33,658 nucleotides of DNA from Alphaproteobacteria bacterium (GTDB lineage: Bacteria; Pseudomonadota; Alphaproteobacteria; Rickettsiales; SXRF01), in assembly GCA_013288305.1 (NCBI GenBank), contig JABDCD010000011.1, positions 1 through 33,658 on the forward strand. The letters are read 5' to 3'. Within the stretch, counting starts at the first letter, position 1, and each line of letters begins with the position of its first letter. Shown here piece after piece: positions 6,719-28,160 of this stretch. The position numbers were made by a program, and so were the translations under genes. The notes beneath the pieces are model-generated. The model ran no database searches and had not been told where the DNA came from. It saw only the letters and a list, made by a program, of their open reading frames with translations.

Positions 6719-7738
6719 ATGAGCACGATACGTTTTTTTAGCGGCACAAGAAGTTCCGGCACTGGGATGTCGAGAGAAGACGTCAAGTTTTTTCTCGAAG
6801 CAAGGAAAAAAATGAGCGCCGCCGAGCGCTGGAAACGCCTGCGCGACAGGAAGTTCGTCGAAAACAAGAAAAAGACCATAGGCAAGATGAAGACCTTCGC
6901 CATCCCCGGCACCATCGCCCAAGCCTATCAGATGTCCAAAAAGGCGGAAGAAGCCCTGAAGCAGATGGCCAAGAAAAAAGCCAGCAAGGAGGCCAAGGCG
7001 CTGCGCCAGATGGTCGTGGTGACGCCGCGCACCTATCACAACGGCCGCATCGCCAAGAACGGAAAAATTTACGACATCCAGGGCACCCTCGTCGCCAAGG
7101 TCCATAGAAAAAACGGCAACATGACGACCCTGATGGGCTGGTCGATCGGCAAATACGATCCCAAATCCTATGTCACCAACGGCCTCATTCAGGGCGCCAT
7201 CGACAAATACAGCCCCTATTACATCAACCTGCGCAAAATGCAGGCGATGCAGCAGGGCACGGTGTGGGGTCCCGACCAGGACGTCATCAACATCCCCGGC
7301 CCTGCCGGCAATTACGGTTCCGCCAACGACAGTTCGGTCGCCTTCTCCAGCTACGGCAGCGACGTCGCCGGCCCGCGCCAGAATATCGGCGCCACCGCCT
7401 GGGGCGCCATGAGCGACAATGCCTGGGGCACGTTTACCGACAACGTCTGGGGCACCTCGTCGGATACGGTCTGGGGCACCAATATGAGCGACGTCTGGGG
7501 CGGCATCGGCGGCAATCCGTTCGGCGGCAAAAGCGTCCAGATCTGGGGCACCGGCAACGGCCATAATTACCTCAAAGGCCTGGGCGCGCGCGTGGCGGCT
7601 TTCTTCGGCATCAAAGTGAAATCCGCCGCCAGCCGCGCCGCTTTCCACCAGAGCGTGAGCCAGGTGCGCACGGCGCGCAGCGGCGCAAGCCCCGCCGTCG
7701 CCCCCACCCGTGCGCCCGCTGCGCCAGCGCGGCGCTGA
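6719..7738 (+). CDS. Hypothetical protein with an octapeptide Trp-Gly repeat
   Basis: 339 residues. The N-terminal third is strongly basic and helical (runs of KKK, AERWKRLRDRKF). A middle region (about 100-180) looks globular, including YHNGRIAKNGKIYDIQGTLVAKVHRKNG. Tryptophans at 228, 236, 244, 252 and 260 are spaced exactly eight residues apart, each followed by Gly, with a further W at 276, two periods on; the consensus is roughly WGTxxDNV. The C-terminus is Ala/Pro/Arg-rich. No signal peptide is seen. No Shine-Dalgarno precedes the ATG; the ATG at 6767 (MSREDV) is an alternative. I do not recognise the family. The regular period suggests a beta-solenoid-like or self-assembling segment (inference). 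Confidence 0.75.
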   Translation: MSTIRFFSGTRSSGTGMSREDVKFFLEARKKMSAAERWKRLRDRKFVENKKKTIGKMKTFAIPGTIAQAYQMSKKAEEALKQMAKKKASKEAKALRQMVVVTPRTYHNGRIAKNGKIYDIQGTLVAKVHRKNGNMTTLMGWSIGKYDPKSYVTNGLIQGAIDKYSPYYINLRKMQAMQQGTVWGPDQDVINIPGPAGNYGSANDSSVAFSSYGSDVAGPRQNIGATAWGAMSDNAWGTFTDNVWGTSSDTVWGTNMSDVWGGIGGNPFGGKSVQIWGTGNGHNYLKGLGARVAAFFGIKVKSAASRAAFHQSVSQVRTARSGASPAVAPTRAPAAPARR

Positions 7739-9685: not shown

Positions 9686-10237
9686 ATGACCGCTGACATC
9701 AATGAACTGCGCCGCCGCATGGATGGGGCGCTGCAATCGCTGCACAAGGAATTCGGAGGGTTGCGCACCGGCCGCGCCAATGCTTCGCTGCTCGACAACA
9801 TCCAGGTCGAGGCGTATGGCAGCATGATGCCGCTCAACCAGGTGTCCACCGTCAGCGTGCCGGAGCCGCGGCTGCTGTCGGTGCAGGTGTGGGACAAGGG
9901 GCTGGTCAAATCGGTCGAGAAGGCGATCAATGCCGCCGGGCTGGGCGTCAACGCCGTGGCCGACGGGCAGCTAGTGCGCGTGCCGATTCCGGGGCTGTCG
10001 CAGGAGCGTCGCGTCGAGCTGGGCAAGGTCGCCAAGAAATACGCCGAGGAGGGCAAAGTCGCCGTGCGCAACGTCCGCCGCGACGGCATGGAAGCGCTCA
10101 AGAAAATGGAAAAAGACGGCGATATCTCCAAAGACGAGCACAAAAAACGCGAGGGCGACATCCAGAAACTCACCGACGAACTCATCAAGAAGATTGATGA
10201 TGCGCTGGCGGTGAAGGAGAAAGAGATTCTGGGTTAG
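9686..10237 (+). CDS. frr: Ribosome recycling factor
   Basis: 183 residues, family-typical. With EF-G it splits the post-termination ribosome. Recognisable are the [21 protein letters not shown] segment near the N-terminus, the hinge region with [14 protein letters not shown], and the helical [24 protein letters not shown] segment at the C-terminus. The ATG is preceded by AGGTAGCTT, a weak Shine-Dalgarno. Its stop codon (10235-10237) is part of the first heptamers of a G-rich repeat, so the repeat begins within the gene. Confidence 0.97.
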
Positions 10238-10331
10238 GGGTTAGGGTTTAGGGTATAGGGTTTAGTGAAAACAGTAGTAGAGATATGCAACCTAACCTTC
10301 ACTATCCCCTATCCCCTATCCCCTATACCCC
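10231..10331. repeat. Telomere-like heptamer array with complementary C-rich arm around the uppS start
   Basis: The G-rich arm (10231-10265) is five heptamers of the GGGTTAG/GGTTTAG/GGTATAG type with five G3-4 tracts. The C-rich arm has four CCCC tracts (10306, 10313, 10320, 10328). The arms pair through GGGTATAGGG (10251-10260) with 10321-10330 and TAGTGAA (10263-10269) with 10298-10304, leaving the uppS ATG in the loop. Confidence 0.8.
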
Positions 10332-11019
10332 GCCACGGCACGTGGCGATCATCATGGACGGCAACGGCCGCTGGGCGAAGTCGCGCGGGCTGCCGCGCAC
10401 GGCGGGGCATAAGAAAGGCGCCGATACGCTGCGCAGTACGCTCAACGCCTGCCGCGACGCCGGGGTAAAATACCTCACCATTTATGCGTTTTCCTCGGAA
10501 AACTGGAAGCGCCCGAGCGATGAAATTTCTGACCTGATGCAACTGTTGCGCCATTACCTCCAAAAGGAACTCGACACGCTGCATGAGAATAAGGTGCGGC
10601 TGCGCTTCATCGGCGATCTGTCGCAACTCGACAAGGATATTCGCGCCAGCATCGACGATGCCATGGAGATGACGGCGCGCAACGGCGCGTTCAATCTCAC
10701 CGTGGCGCTGTCCTACGGCAGCCGCCAGGAAATCGTGCGCGCCGTGCGCCGCATCGTGGAAAAAGGCGTGGCGGCTTCGGATATCACCGAAGAAACGCTG
10801 GCCGAAGCGCTCGATACCGCCGAACTGCCGGAACCGGATTTGCTGATACGCACCGGCGGCGAGCAGCGCCTGAGTAATTTTTTATTGTGGCAGGCAGCCT
10901 ATACCGAGTTTTATTTTACGGATATATTGTGGCCGGATTTCGATACGAAACATTTTACGGAAGCCCTGCAGGATTATGCCGGGCGGGAAAGGCGATATGG
11001 AACCACAGGAGAAGAGTGA
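10285..11019 (+). CDS. uppS: Isoprenyl transferase (undecaprenyl diphosphate synthase)
   Basis: 244 residues. It condenses eight isopentenyl units onto FPP to make the C55 lipid carrier used for peptidoglycan and O-antigen. HVAIIMDGNGRWAKSRGLPRTAGH carries the catalytic Asp25 and phosphate-binding loop. SSENWKRP and LLIRTGGEQRLSNFLLWQAAYTEFYFTD are also characteristic. The first ~17 residues (MQPNLHYPLSPIPYTPP) are encoded by the C-rich repeat arm and are not conserved, so the native start may have been replaced by repeat expansion. There is no strong Shine-Dalgarno before the ATG. cdsA overlaps by 23 bases. Confidence 0.95.
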   Translation: MQPNLHYPLSPIPYTPPRHVAIIMDGNGRWAKSRGLPRTAGHKKGADTLRSTLNACRDAGVKYLTIYAFSSENWKRPSDEISDLMQLLRHYLQKELDTLHENKVRLRFIGDLSQLDKDIRASIDDAMEMTARNGAFNLTVALSYGSRQEIVRAVRRIVEKGVAASDITEETLAEALDTAELPEPDLLIRTGGEQRLSNFLLWQAAYTEFYFTDILWPDFDTKHFTEALQDYAGRERRYGTTGEE

Positions 11020-23714: not shown

Positions 23715-26700
23715 ATGAAACGTACCCGCGGGAAAAACGCCAAGAAAAAAACGCTTGCCCATAAATGGCGGCTGTTCCTGCTGACGTCATGCCTCACCAC
23801 CCTGCCCCAGCAAAGCCATGCCAGCGACATCCGGCACGCTCCCGACCCCGACGGCAGTCACGATCCGTCGGTATTGCCGCGCGATCAGCACACATTGCTG
23901 CAGCTGTCCATCCAGCAGGTCGTCGATGAATTCTTCTCGCTTAAGGAACTCCTCGTCCCCTCCGCGAACGCCCAAAATCCGCCCGTAAATCCACCTGTGG
24001 TAGACCCGAATCCGCCTGTGAATCCACCTGTGAATCCACCTGTAAATCCGTCGCCTGTAAATCCACCTGTGAATCCGCCTGTAGTAGACCCGAATCCACC
24101 TGTGAATCCGCCTGTAAATCCGCCACCTGTGAATCCACCTGTAAATCCGCCACCTGTAAATCCGCCTGTGAATCCGCCACCTGTGAATCCACCTGTAAAT
24201 CCGCCACCTGTAAATCCGCCTGTGAATCCGCCTGTAGTAGACCCGAATCCACCTGTGAATCCGCCTGTAAATCCGCCTGTGAATCCGCCTGTAGTAGACC
24301 CGAATCCACCTGTGAATCCGCCTGTAAATCCGCCACCTGTGAATCCACCTGTAAATCCGCCACCTGTAAATCCGCCTGTAAATCCGCCGCCTGTAGTTCC
24401 GCCTGTAAATCCGCCGCCTGTAGTTCCGCCTAATTCCAATCCCGATAGCCCTTTTACCGTTATCGATCTACCACTTCCGGAGTCCAATCCCGACTCTTTT
24501 ACCATTACCTTTCCTGACTCTTTTCCCGATTCCAATCCTGAACCTTTTACCATTACCTTTCCTGACTCTTTTCCCGATTCCAATCCTGAACCTTTTATCA
24601 TTACCTTTCCCGAGCCCTTTCCGGAAACCCATCCCGATACGCATCCTGATTCCTTCCCCGATAGCATTCACCACCCTGAGCCTCATCCTGAAACGCATCC
24701 CGATACCTACCCTGATACGCATCCCGAGTATTATCCCGACACTTATCCTGAGCACTATCCCGATACCTACCCTGATACGTATCCTGATACCTATCCCGAT
24801 ACTTATCCTGATACTTACCCCGATACGTATCCTGATACGCATCCCGACACCTATCCCGATACCTATCCCGACAACTGTAACGACAGCATTCCTGAGACGT
24901 ACCCCGATACTTCACCCGACTCGGGTCCCGAATCTTCTCCGGAGCGGCTGCCCGACCTGCCTTTCATGGAAGCGCTGCCGATGGATACGCGCTACCGCGA
25001 TATGTGCGTTACGGGGGCGGTGCTGCCGGCCAGCGATTTCGATGCGAAAACCGGCAACCTGACCGGAGCGCCCGGCACCCCCTGCAGCGAGTCGAATCTA
25101 TTTGGCGAGGGCTGCACCGGCACCCTGCTGGGAGCGAAACCGCCGCCCGACGCGGCGGGCAACCGTCAGTGCGTAGCAATGAAGGATACGCCGGTAGTGG
25201 ATATTCCCGCCGCCATCAAAGCGAATCCCAACCTCGCTTTTGCCTCTTACCTGAACATGGACGCTGCGAACCAATATAACCTCGATAACGCCATATGGGG
25301 CTTACCCGACATGTATGGCGCCATCAGCTCTTACCCGAACGTGACGCATGTGGTCGGCGGCAAGGCCGGGTGCCTGGACATCCTTGACTTTGCCCTTCCG
25401 CCCGCCATGGCGCCGTGGAACATCTCCCTGTTCGCCGACCTGGCCCGCGCGAAGTTCTTTAATTGCGACGCCAATTTCACTTTGAGCAATGACCTTTTTC
25501 CCGTTCCAGGCACCAGCCTCCCCGGCCCGGCCTACGTCATGGCACGGCCGGGCGTCCCCGGCCCCGGCGATTTCGGCACGCCCGATCCCCGCTCGAAAGA
25601 CGATCCCAACGGCGCTATCGTCGCCAGCTGCCAGCCGCTGGTAAGCGGTTATTGGGCGCAGATCGCCAAATTAGGCGGGCCGAATGAAACGAAAGGCGGC
25701 GGCGCGCCGGTCTGGCGTTATAGCGGTGAAGGGATAAACGCATTGTGGCCTGAGATCAGCGTTGCCGACGGCAATGTGCTGGCGGCGGTGTATGACGAAA
25801 ACGAATTCCGGTTGAGCACCGGTCTGGCCGGCGGCTTAGGCAATTACCTGTGGAAAGACTGGAAGGCGAACTTCATCGATCGTCCCATCAATCCGCTCTA
25901 TGTATTGACAGAAACGCTGGAGCCAAATCCATTTAAAGACCAAGTCATCGGGCTACCGTGCGTCCAGGATATCGGCTCGGACAGCCCGCCGTCGTCGGAC
26001 AGCCCGGCCACCTCGGACAGCCCGGCCACCGGGGTTTCCCCGCCGCCACCCAAACCCATACCGCCGTTATGCCACGCCCCTCCTGACAGCATTCCCGACA
26101 CCGCCCCCGATTCATGCGCGCTGCCCAGCTTCCCGATCCCGCCGGATTACAATTACCAATCGCCGCCGGTGCCGACCGATTCCAAGGGGAAGAAAATTTA
26201 TTATTGCCCGAACGTCGAGAAAATCATCGATCCGAGCAACCCGTTCTCGCCGCGCCTGGATTTCACCCCCGGCAACACCGACCGCGATACCTATTCCCCG
26301 AAAACTTCGCAAGACCTTAACTCCTGCAGCGCTACCATACTGGGCTACACCGACTACAAGAAGAATCCGGATGATTGGAAAGCGCTCAACGAATTGCCGG
26401 TACAGTGCGCCGACGTTCCCGTCGATATATTGAACGAACGCAAGGCGGCATTCGACAGCTGCATCACGCAGCGCATCAATACTAACTTCAATGCCTGGAT
26501 CGCCGCCGGGTTCCCTGACCCCCAACATGCGGACGGCAGCGGATTCAAGCCGCCGTGCGCCACCCGCTTCTTCGAGACGGATACGACATCGACCTGTCCG
26601 GTGAAGATGAGCATTCAACAATGCTGCCATATTATCCTCAAGGATGTCGTGCCCGCCAATTACGTGAAGCTGCGCAGCTGCGAAGGGCTGCGGCACAAGC

Positions 26701-28160
26701 GCATGGCGGTATTCGGCGCAACGACCATCCTGGATACCGACCCGCGCTATGCGACCAATCCCAAAGAAAAAGGCCCCAACGTGCTGATCAATGAGGCGAA
26801 CTACCAGAAGGCGCTGGCCGATGATGAAATGATGAATCAGCCCCAGTATGACTGCGATAAAACACTGGAGACAAAAGAATCCCACTTCAATAATAATCCC
26901 AATCCTCCCGGCAGCGAGAGCATCCCCTATGTCAGGCCCTATTTCGATCCTTCTACCGGGGCGCTGGTGGGCTATCACAAGCCGTACATGCGCTGGTGGG
27001 ATACCGGCGTTTCGGCAGGCCAGCCGCGCCATGGCGGCAGCTTTCTGGGTACGCTGGGCAGCTACGACGTAGTGATCGGCGTCGGCCGCGAGGAACGCTC
27101 GCCCGAGGATGCCGTGCTGGCTAATAAAAATCCGCCAAACGGCCCCCTGGATCAGACCGCCGACGAACTGAAGAAACCCCAGTTCGCCCAGGAGGGCAGA
27201 TTCGGCGGCTGGACCGAGCTGATGCTTCACCAGCTAAATACCTGGCGCCGCGCCAACCTGGCCTGCATCGGGCGCTATGAAAAACTGGGCAAGCCCTACA
27301 GCGCCGAAGCCCTCGTTCTCGCCAAGGCGGGCGCCGGCTATACCAGCATGGCCGGCCAGCAGAAACCGTGGCCCGAGGGCTGGCGCGGCTATGTCACCGA
27401 TACCCATAAGCAGGGATTCCCGGTAGCCATGCAGGGGCGGCAGGGGCTGGACAACGTGCGTATCGGCGACATCATCAGCTATACCATAGGCGGCGTGCCG
27501 CACATCGCTTTTGTGACCGGCGTCGATTTCAACAAGCCGGGCGCGGAACACGTCAATGTCGTCTTCTGGGACCAGGGCAAATTCCCCGACTCCACCGGCT
27601 TCAGCATCATGGCAGGCCAGCCCACGGAACGCAGTATTTATAAAACGGCCGTGGAGACGCAAATAACGACCGACCATATTTTATTTGCGCTTACCGGCGT
27701 GCAGCCCTCCTGTGAGGATCCGGGCTATGTCGAATGTGTGTTACCTCCCGATAGCGCGGGGAAAGATCAATGGACGACGGCGTGGATTTACCGTCCCCGG
27801 GATGACGTACGCAGATGTCCCCTGCCCCAACTTACCAAGACCTATGATTGGCCAGGCCTGACCTCCCTCTTGCTTCTGCAGCAATTCACCATTCCAGGCG
27901 CCGCGGCCACGGCCGTCGCTTCGAGTTCGCTCGCTCCCCCCGGCGTCATCGGACAAGCGATGACCCAGGATTATCCCACCAATGTATGGGAGTGGTGCGT
28001 CAATAGCGGCTACGATTCGCCAATCACGTGGAGGCCTATAGAAGGATGGACCGGCGCGGGAGCCGGCGCCATTACACCGGTCATCCTGTGCGGCCCGGGA
28101 TGGGAAGGCTGCCTCGCCGCCAGCGAACATACCGAATACTTCACGGGAACCACGCGATAG
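23715..28160 (+). CDS. Giant exported repeat protein (NPPV and PDTY repeats plus Cys-containing C-terminal region)
   Basis: 1481 residues. A basic N-terminus and hydrophobic core (RLFLLTSCLTTLPQQSHAS) make a signal peptide. Residues 88-238 are NPPV/NPPP repeats with interspersed VVDP. About 242-316 hold longer repeats (TITFPDSFPDSNPEPF). About 326-388 hold PDTY tetrads, with a few HPDT/PEYY variants. From about 430 to the end the sequence is non-repetitive, rich in Cys and Pro, with short SDSPA repeats near 755-775. A stretch near 1230-1300 (GLDNVRIGDIISYTIGG and PHIAFVTGVDF) faintly recalls CHAP/NlpC-type folds, but no catalytic triad can be assigned. Probably a cell-surface or secreted stalk-and-head protein; family not recognised. 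No clear Shine-Dalgarno. Confidence 0.85.
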   Translation: MKRTRGKNAKKKTLAHKWRLFLLTSCLTTLPQQSHASDIRHAPDPDGSHDPSVLPRDQHTLLQLSIQQVVDEFFSLKELLVPSANAQNPPVNPPVVDPNPPVNPPVNPPVNPSPVNPPVNPPVVDPNPPVNPPVNPPPVNPPVNPPPVNPPVNPPPVNPPVNPPPVNPPVNPPVVDPNPPVNPPVNPPVNPPVVDPNPPVNPPVNPPPVNPPVNPPPVNPPVNPPPVVPPVNPPPVVPPNSNPDSPFTVIDLPLPESNPDSFTITFPDSFPDSNPEPFTITFPDSFPDSNPEPFIITFPEPFPETHPDTHPDSFPDSIHHPEPHPETHPDTYPDTHPEYYPDTYPEHYPDTYPDTYPDTYPDTYPDTYPDTYPDTHPDTYPDTYPDNCNDSIPETYPDTSPDSGPESSPERLPDLPFMEALPMDTRYRDMCVTGAVLPASDFDAKTGNLTGAPGTPCSESNLFGEGCTGTLLGAKPPPDAAGNRQCVAMKDTPVVDIPAAIKANPNLAFASYLNMDAANQYNLDNAIWGLPDMYGAISSYPNVTHVVGGKAGCLDILDFALPPAMAPWNISLFADLARAKFFNCDANFTLSNDLFPVPGTSLPGPAYVMARPGVPGPGDFGTPDPRSKDDPNGAIVASCQPLVSGYWAQIAKLGGPNETKGGGAPVWRYSGEGINALWPEISVADGNVLAAVYDENEFRLSTGLAGGLGNYLWKDWKANFIDRPINPLYVLTETLEPNPFKDQVIGLPCVQDIGSDSPPSSDSPATSDSPATGVSPPPPKPIPPLCHAPPDSIPDTAPDSCALPSFPIPPDYNYQSPPVPTDSKGKKIYYCPNVEKIIDPSNPFSPRLDFTPGNTDRDTYSPKTSQDLNSCSATILGYTDYKKNPDDWKALNELPVQCADVPVDILNERKAAFDSCITQRINTNFNAWIAAGFPDPQHADGSGFKPPCATRFFETDTTSTCPVKMSIQQCCHIILKDVVPANYVKLRSCEGLRHKRMAVFGATTILDTDPRYATNPKEKGPNVLINEANYQKALADDEMMNQPQYDCDKTLETKESHFNNNPNPPGSESIPYVRPYFDPSTGALVGYHKPYMRWWDTGVSAGQPRHGGSFLGTLGSYDVVIGVGREERSPEDAVLANKNPPNGPLDQTADELKKPQFAQEGRFGGWTELMLHQLNTWRRANLACIGRYEKLGKPYSAEALVLAKAGAGYTSMAGQQKPWPEGWRGYVTDTHKQGFPVAMQGRQGLDNVRIGDIISYTIGGVPHIAFVTGVDFNKPGAEHVNVVFWDQGKFPDSTGFSIMAGQPTERSIYKTAVETQITTDHILFALTGVQPSCEDPGYVECVLPPDSAGKDQWTTAWIYRPRDDVRRCPLPQLTKTYDWPGLTSLLLLQQFTIPGAAATAVASSSLAPPGVIGQAMTQDYPTNVWEWCVNSGYDSPITWRPIEGWTGAGAGAITPVILCGPGWEGCLAASEHTEYFTGTTR
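23976..24430 (+). repeat. Tandem 12-bp coding repeat (NPPV/NPPP array)
   Basis: Units of the form AAYCCRCCTGTR repeated with occasional 3-base CCA/CCG insertions and VVDP spacers. Third-position changes are scattered, so the array is not a recent perfect expansion, but longer blocks (for example around 24069-24180 and 24228-24330) are near-identical, implying block duplication. Confidence 0.92.
24480..24600 (+). repeat. Tandem ~57-bp coding repeat (TITFPDSFPDSNPEPF)
   Basis: Near-identical units encoding ACC-ATT-ACC-TTT-CCT-GAC-TCT, followed by the SNPEPF part, occur at about 24483, 24540 and 24597, the third starting to diverge. Confidence 0.8.
24690..24876 (+). repeat. Tandem 12-bp coding repeat (PDTY array)
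   Basis: Units like CCYGATACSTAY in near-continuous array, encoding Pro-Asp-Thr-Tyr tetrads with His/Glu variants at the edges. Confidence 0.9.

Follow-up and report, generated by a model that had tools for sequence, protein, structure and literature searches.

The junction of frr and uppS in the 33,658-nt stretch of DNA analyzed here (the window) raises the question of what an array of G-rich heptamers, followed by a complementary C-rich array, is doing around the start of the reading frame for undecaprenyl diphosphate synthase. The preliminary description had read the two arrays as a quadruplex-or-hairpin choice in the mRNA that could set uppS translation, and had called the heptamers telomere-like. 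The features of the locus are as follows.

9686..10237, + strand: frr, ribosome recycling factor (ORF; PF01765, 1.2e-64; TIGR00496)
10231..10269, + strand: 5′ (G-rich) arm, approximately five heptamers, inner end TAGTGAA (from the sequence, TRF and model R1)
10270..10297, + strand: loop of 28 bases (from the sequence and folds)
10285..11019, + strand: uppS, undecaprenyl (polyprenyl) diphosphate synthase (ORF; PF01255 at residues 23-239; TIGR00055 at residues 17-239)
10298..10331, − strand: 3′ (C-rich) arm, G-rich on the − strand (from the sequence, TRF and model R1)

The 5′ arm overlaps the last codons of frr, whose TAG stop (10235-10237) lies within it, so that the heptamers do not simply follow frr as first described; the five G-tracts (3, 4, 3, 3 and 3 bases, with loops of 3, 3, 4 and 4 bases) and the quadruplex (G4) motif that they form on the coding strand are nevertheless there, as are the four CCCC tracts of the 3′ arm, which lie in the N-terminal codons of uppS and represent a G4 motif on the other strand. 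TRF reports period 7 for both arms (TTAGGGT x4.6 in the 5′ arm, CTATCCC x4.1 in the 3′ arm), the units of this copy being TTAGGGG/TATAGGG and GGGGATA. The pattern GGGN4GGGN4GGGN4GGG matches twice in the whole window, both times in this element, with an average of 0.02 matches in 100 shuffles, and a general G4 pattern also matches at 7690-7717 on the − strand. The proposed pairing of the two arms around the uppS start is borne out by the predicted RNA fold of 10225-10340 (−50.4 kcal/mol, z −4.3), which none of 200 shuffles equals in stability; folded as DNA, the same region gives z −2.2, with 6 of 200 shuffles as good. The uppS ATG (10285-10287) lies in the loop, which also carries AGTAGTAGAGAT, judged by eye to be weakly SD-like. 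The 3′ arm codes for approximately residues 5-16 of UppS, the ATG and codons 2-4 being derived from the loop, and thus the array has written most, though not all, of the 17 N-terminal residues attributed to it; the conserved domain starts at residue 17-23.

A BLAST search of the own genome (G000; partial, 1.04 Mb in 52 contigs, approximately 55% complete) with the uppS-junction region returned 21 matches at E ≤ 10, self included. R1, an arm model made from 27 arm sequences, returned 36 arm matches at E ≤ 1, which make up 17 inverted pairs and two single, unpaired arrays (C1:4175 and C37:2348). Most of the matched arms served as the training set, and the R1 scores are therefore partly given by construction, as with both arms of the window copy (10236-10269, E 6.9e-7, and 10298-10330 on the − strand, E 8.9e-5), which belonged to the building set; R1 had not met the pairs at C6 and C10 in training, and the weakest of the 36 arms have E values of 0.1 to 1. 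The genome search for the heptamer that the preliminary description had proposed thus uncovers a dispersed element, and regulation specific to uppS was dropped as a candidate once these further copies turned up.

The copies measure about 70-130 bp in all, and in 17 of 17 pairs the G-rich arm is followed by the C-rich one. Their units are of the types GGGATTR, GGGGTTA/GGGTATA ending in TAGTGAA, and GGCATTA, many copies having the inner end TAG[TG]GAA in common, and both arms fall into one group in all 17 elements when the GGGATTR and GGCATTA types are pooled. The likeness to telomeres is therefore confined to a resemblance of the unit, which is one of several in the genome, and a telomere relation was rejected on polarity and location, as the elements lie within contigs, beside ordinary genes, with the G-rich arm 5′ on both strands. 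The pattern GGGATTNGGGATTNGGG has 16 matches in the genome vs 5 for the reversed control, and it finds the unit GGGATTG, which equals the GGGGATT of Nostoc. Of 289 genomes from the class, 4 contain the pattern GGGATTRGGGATTRGGG, and a different, wider pattern, GGGDWTRGGGDWTRGGG, is present in 21 of 106 from the order, the own genome being included in both counts; patterns of this kind overlook other units, and their controls are not clean, because backward controls match the same arrays (e.g., 1 forward vs 11 control matches). In Rfam nothing came close to the gathering score, the hits to mir-H1 (E 0.065 and 0.76) and M23 (0.29) being taken as chance. A plasmid BLAST with heptamers as the query returned no match, which is unsurprising for simple repeats when the filter is on. 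Two of the copies have peculiarities of their own: at C8:9020-9107, arms of 34 nt match perfectly while being made of non-identical heptamers, which perhaps makes this the youngest copy, and at C4:42572-42702 a loop of 66 nt seems to code for a part of the adjoining protein that resembles a signal peptide.

The history of the junction itself was followed in a family set of 16 genomes, of which 15 have uppS and 14 have frr just upstream, the frr ends having been read from the sequence; G002 has uppS without frr just upstream. An inverted array is present at the junction in 8 of the 14 genomes, with eight different units as read by eye.

G000: TTAGGGG
G001: CGGTCAG
G004: GGGTCGG
G006: AGGSATT
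G007: AGGCACT
G009: a 13-nt unit
G011: GGATGAC
G014: AGGCTCT

Six of these eight junctions score best at a lag of 7; G014 does so at 14, with 7 a close second, and G009 at 13. The element is absent from the junctions of G003, G005, G008, G010, G013 and G015, where no lag scores above 6.4, and its absence from 6 of 14 junctions implies that no indispensable control of uppS rests on it. In a tree of PolA, UppS and RsmI, the genera g4 and g7 form a single clade with a support of 0.999, which lies among genera that carry elements; the order within g4/g7 is weakly supported (0.40). Junction elements are found in the genera g1, g3, g5 and g6 and in none of the four placed g4/g7 genomes, and by eye no element is seen in g4+g7 at either the junction or polA. 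This agrees with a site that was occupied early and lost once in that clade, together with single losses such as that of G015 at uppS; the junction of G003, which lies outside the g4+g7 clade, is element-free too.

What is common to the elements can be defined without reference to their bases. An ungapped inverted-repeat census proved too strict, and a period detector was used in its place, which calls tandem arrays at each period from 4 to 15 and then inverted pairing, with no base preference. At the uppS and polA loci of the family (140 kb), it called 48 arrays of period 7 and, from these, 16 inverted pairs, while periods 4-6 and 8-15 gave no pair; these loci are a non-random choice, the two genes having been picked for the own genome's copies there, and 2 of the 16 pairs come from the own genome (the window copy and its polA). 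In 502 kb from other bacteria, comprising 80 uppS loci, period 7 has 11 arrays and no inverted pairs, and period 8 has one pair. The 80 best UppS relatives kept are a mixed set, with many Alphaproteobacteria near the top. A less selected sample (8 relatives and the window, 589 kb) gave five pairs at period 7 (G001, G004, G006, G015 and the window), two at period 8 and none elsewhere, with no pairs in the samples from G007, G008, G009 and G011. The period-8 pairs, of the GATAACC/GATGAC type, lie at L267:6474-6549 (G006) and L279:2111-2192 (G015), and G and C in their 5′ arms, counted by eye, are equal in one and in favor of G in the other. Together with the period of 13 in G009, these pairs indicate that the step is not strictly 7.

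With the two period-8 pairs left out, G exceeds C in 70 of 70 arms (35 pairs), 36 of these arms being from relatives and found without base preference and 34 from the own genome and found with the G-rich model. Where two arrays lie within 150 bp of each other in the relatives (812 kb), 17 are ordered G-then-C, none C-then-G, none G-G and one C-C, a count that omits arrays with equal G and C and includes some loci picked by a G-rich pattern, which leaves the order free. Since a palindrome reads alike on both strands, this polarity belongs to the element and not to the neighboring gene. The two arms of an element are also more alike than arms of different elements, both in the relatives (mean score 17.5 within vs 6.4 between) and in the own genome (20.3 vs 15.1), with 0 of 5000 permutations in each case. 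Within the own-genome subfamilies, an element's two arms resemble each other no more than they resemble the arms of other elements (the observed mean is reached in 639 and in 1472 of 5000 permutations), so that a shared unit can explain the pairing without any copying from arm to arm, the exception being the perfect palindrome at C8:9020.

Copies also lie within protein genes. Five of the 17 pairs are internal to ORFs and in frame, in the genes for pyruvate dehydrogenase E2, where the copy is taken to sit in the linker of the protein, and for a glutamate-synthase-like protein, in polA (twice) and in mutY. Counted by eye, MutY has 34 residues at this place in the own genome and 15 in all eight relatives for which mutY could be matched, the other 7 of the 15 relatives giving no match; the element has 78 nt and the net gain is 57 nt, and going by these lengths approximately 21 nt of native sequence appear to have been replaced. 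The resulting MutY scores 278.8 bits, the curated cut-off being 286.5. In rsmI, a single array of approximately 29 nt stands in place of native codons with the protein length unchanged, as judged against six relatives placed by motif (7 of 13 could not be placed).

The two polA sites could be followed further. At site 1, in the linker, G000, G002, G006 and G015 have inverted heptamer pairs according to the detector, and such pairs are seen by eye in G004, G007 and G009 as well; none is visible by eye in G008, G010, G012 and G013, while G011 and G014 are not classable and G001, G003 and G005 were not placed by motif. At site 2, placed in 15 genomes, inverted arrays are present in G000, G002 and G004, single arrays of TCAG-type heptamers at native length (13-15 residues) in G007, G014 and G015, and an unclassified long insert in G001, with no array in G005, G006, G008, G010, G011, G012 and G013. 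The polA locus of G009 (L245) has additional palindromes, an unrelated second one nested within the heptamer element at site 1 and a further one at site 2.

Sequence comparison shows that, within one family, the same sites are occupied in several genera, with differing units. Probably the best account of this is a dispersed inverted-heptamer repeat, composed of G-rich 7-mers in tandem, a loop, and a complementary array of like 7-mers. In this model, the occupied site would be inherited for the most part, and the unit would be replaced through 7-mer slippage and through ectopic conversion by other arrays of the genome. All that selection would then demand is that the frame stays open, that the length and fold of the protein are tolerated, and that a start or stop can still be used. 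At frr-uppS, the copy provides the stop of frr, the start and N-terminal codons of uppS, and a strong predicted mRNA hairpin with the ATG in its loop, and we take it to be tolerated there and not to serve as a dedicated switch.

The main rival of the inherited-site model is recurrent insertion driven by a transposase, in which the element is a mobile palindrome of the MITE or REP type, permissive sites are hit again and again, and the differing units mark separate insertions. Such insertion would produce much of the same picture, and we regard it as a possible but doubtful account. It would agree with the dispersal of the own-genome copies, with their common units and inner ends, and with the mutY copy, which is missing in all eight relatives compared. 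It would also agree with arrangements in G089 and G105 of the same kind as terminal repeats, where inverted heptamer arrays 0.63-0.94 kb apart surround whole genes (L165:1673-2388, L166:1375-2109 and L167:1295-2312); the genes between the arms, which look like cargo, are one for a DUF6680 protein in L166 (the same gene by sequence in L165), which is followed by a nucleotidyltransferase gene, and one for an AbiU2-like HEPN protein in L167. Against it stand the variable length and unit of the arms, the distribution of the junction element, with its single empty clade, and the flanks of the 17 pairs, where direct repeats within 20 nt average 3.41 nt vs 3.52 nt for re-paired flanks (213 of 300 re-pairings reach the observed mean), a target-site duplication not above chance, with element edges that are approximate.

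The search for a transposase, which covered Y1_Tnp (PF01797) alone, found the domain in 2 of 16 family genomes, G001 (as fragments) and G015, both of which carry elements, and not in the element-bearing G000, G002, G004, G006, G007, G009, G011 and G014, of which G007 is listed as 100% complete. RAYT/REP mobilization was rejected on this absence from most element-bearing genomes and on the missing target-site duplication. As a separate observation, G026, of the same order, has at least 64 matches to the Y1 transposase, of almost the same score, on one contig of 2.0 Mb (64 of 148 candidates were scored). In a 20-kb sample of it (GC 0.31), 5% of the length, at the Y1 gene, aligns with Candidatus Megaera plasmids at 90-91%, which suggests that the order may be Rickettsiales; a sample from G048, again of the same order, has only a weak match to a Legionella plasmid.

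A bolder form of the inherited-site model, which we put forward tentatively, is that fixed sites (among them the frr-uppS junction and a linker and a loop of DNA polymerase I) keep an inverted array of 7-nt period with the G-rich arm 5′ while the repeat word is rewritten, i.e., a heritable structure that is independent of its sequence. If true, this would call for template switching or conversion by which 7-mers are copied from array to array and codons can be overwritten with the protein length unchanged, as in rsmI of the own genome and at polA site 2 of G007, G014 and G015.

It is also conceivable, though unlikely, that what is selected at frr-uppS is an intercistronic RNA hairpin of any sequence, which would tune translation or mRNA decay and hold the uppS start in its loop. 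The loop does hold an ATG start at seven of the eight junctions with the element, which may simply reflect where a start can lie; the exception is G007, whose nearest in-frame start, a GTG, falls within the arm. The RNA fold z values of the junctions point in the same direction, since 7 of 8 with the element range from −1.9 to −8.2 (G000 −5.3, G001 −7.0, G004 −3.5, G006 −1.9, G007 −3.7, G009 −8.2, G011 −2.5), and the six without it from −1.0 to +1.5 (G003 −1.0, G005 +1.5, G008 −0.2, G010 −0.9, G013 +0.5, G015 +0.2). However, the fold is at chance level in G014 (z −0.7) despite the element, and is weak in G006, six junctions do without the element, and the same elements occur inside proteins, where no start is concerned.

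The quadruplex-or-hairpin switch for uppS is very improbable, for although the G-tracts on both strands and the strong predicted hairpin around the start speak for it, and (GGGGATT)n oligonucleotides form K+-dependent quadruplexes in vitro (PMC4692102), the element is missing at 6 of 14 junctions, a G4 motif is found at only 2 of the 8 element-bearing ones (G000 and G004), 16 other own-genome pairs lie elsewhere, and four uninterrupted G-tracts, present in 10 of 17 5′ arms and 9 of 17 3′ arms of the own genome, occur in 0 of 18 and 0 of 18 arms of the relatives. The traits that are kept are thus period, inversion and polarity, and not the quadruplex.

Of the known systems, the heptamers of Xanthomonas (GGGAATC) and Nostoc (GGGGA(C/T)T) described by Rehm et al. 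in 2015 (PMC4692102) come closest; they most often occur as four units and, in the parts of that text available, have no function assigned. As here, they are 7-nt G-rich units, and convergent inverted pairs are known for them (70 in Xcc and 75 in Xac, few in Nostoc); the unit GGGATTG of the own genome is the Nostoc unit. In Xcc and Xac the positions are mostly common to both, while length and sequence vary. The differences are that the Xanthomonas heptamers are 89-93% intergenic with a nearly fixed unit, whereas here the units vary by locus, and by genus at one site, and ORFs enclose 5 of the 17 pairs, these in frame, and one of the two single arrays, as raw fractions more than the 7-11% intragenic in Xanthomonas. 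The absence of a G4 motif from 18 of 18 5′ arms of the relatives also sets them apart from the Xanthomonas and Nostoc arrays.

A swap of units at one position has a parallel in the P6b stem of the Nostoc trnL intron, which is built of 7-nt repeats of Class I (TDNGATT) or Class II (NNTGAGT; PMC4476775) and has changed class repeatedly with the structure remaining alike; it differs in being a single intron site, with two classes only, outside protein genes. The Rickettsia palindromic elements (RPE), which form families with a conserved peptide and a length of about 105-150 bp, resemble the present element, by description alone, as dispersed palindromes in frame in conserved housekeeping proteins, and their hosts perhaps belong to the same bacterial order as the own genome; heptamer arrays are not part of their description in the accessible text (PMC2229807, PMC10969869). 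In Cyanobacteria and Beggiatoaceae, the STRRs, which can form hairpins (PMC2670836), and the TAACTGA heptamers, which are direct repeats of fixed unit with one indirect repeat and 2-6 copies in the Beggiatoa genome (PMC4679880), are likewise 7-nt arrays dispersed patchily near genes, with no mechanism given, and differ in that coding copies are not the focus of those sources, going by the sections available. A partial search of the literature yielded no description of heptamer-armed in-frame palindromes in proteins, nor of a single site, intergenic or in a protein, that holds differing heptamers in different genera. New here are the in-frame copies in housekeeping enzymes and the different repeat words at one fixed site.

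With period, inversion and polarity persisting and quadruplex capacity not, attention shifts from the quadruplex to a DNA process with a step of approximately 7 nt. For the cyanobacterial, Xanthomonas and Beggiatoaceae arrays, the cited papers, in their available parts, give neither a mechanism of spread nor a settled function, and the orthologous sites at frr-uppS, polA (two), mutY and rsmI offer a ready test set for such a process, at which short repeats are shown rewriting parts of housekeeping proteins. Repeats of another sort are found elsewhere in the window, at 23715-28160, where an ORF of 1481 residues, without a Pfam match at 1e-3, carries many tandem repeats of 12-27 nt.
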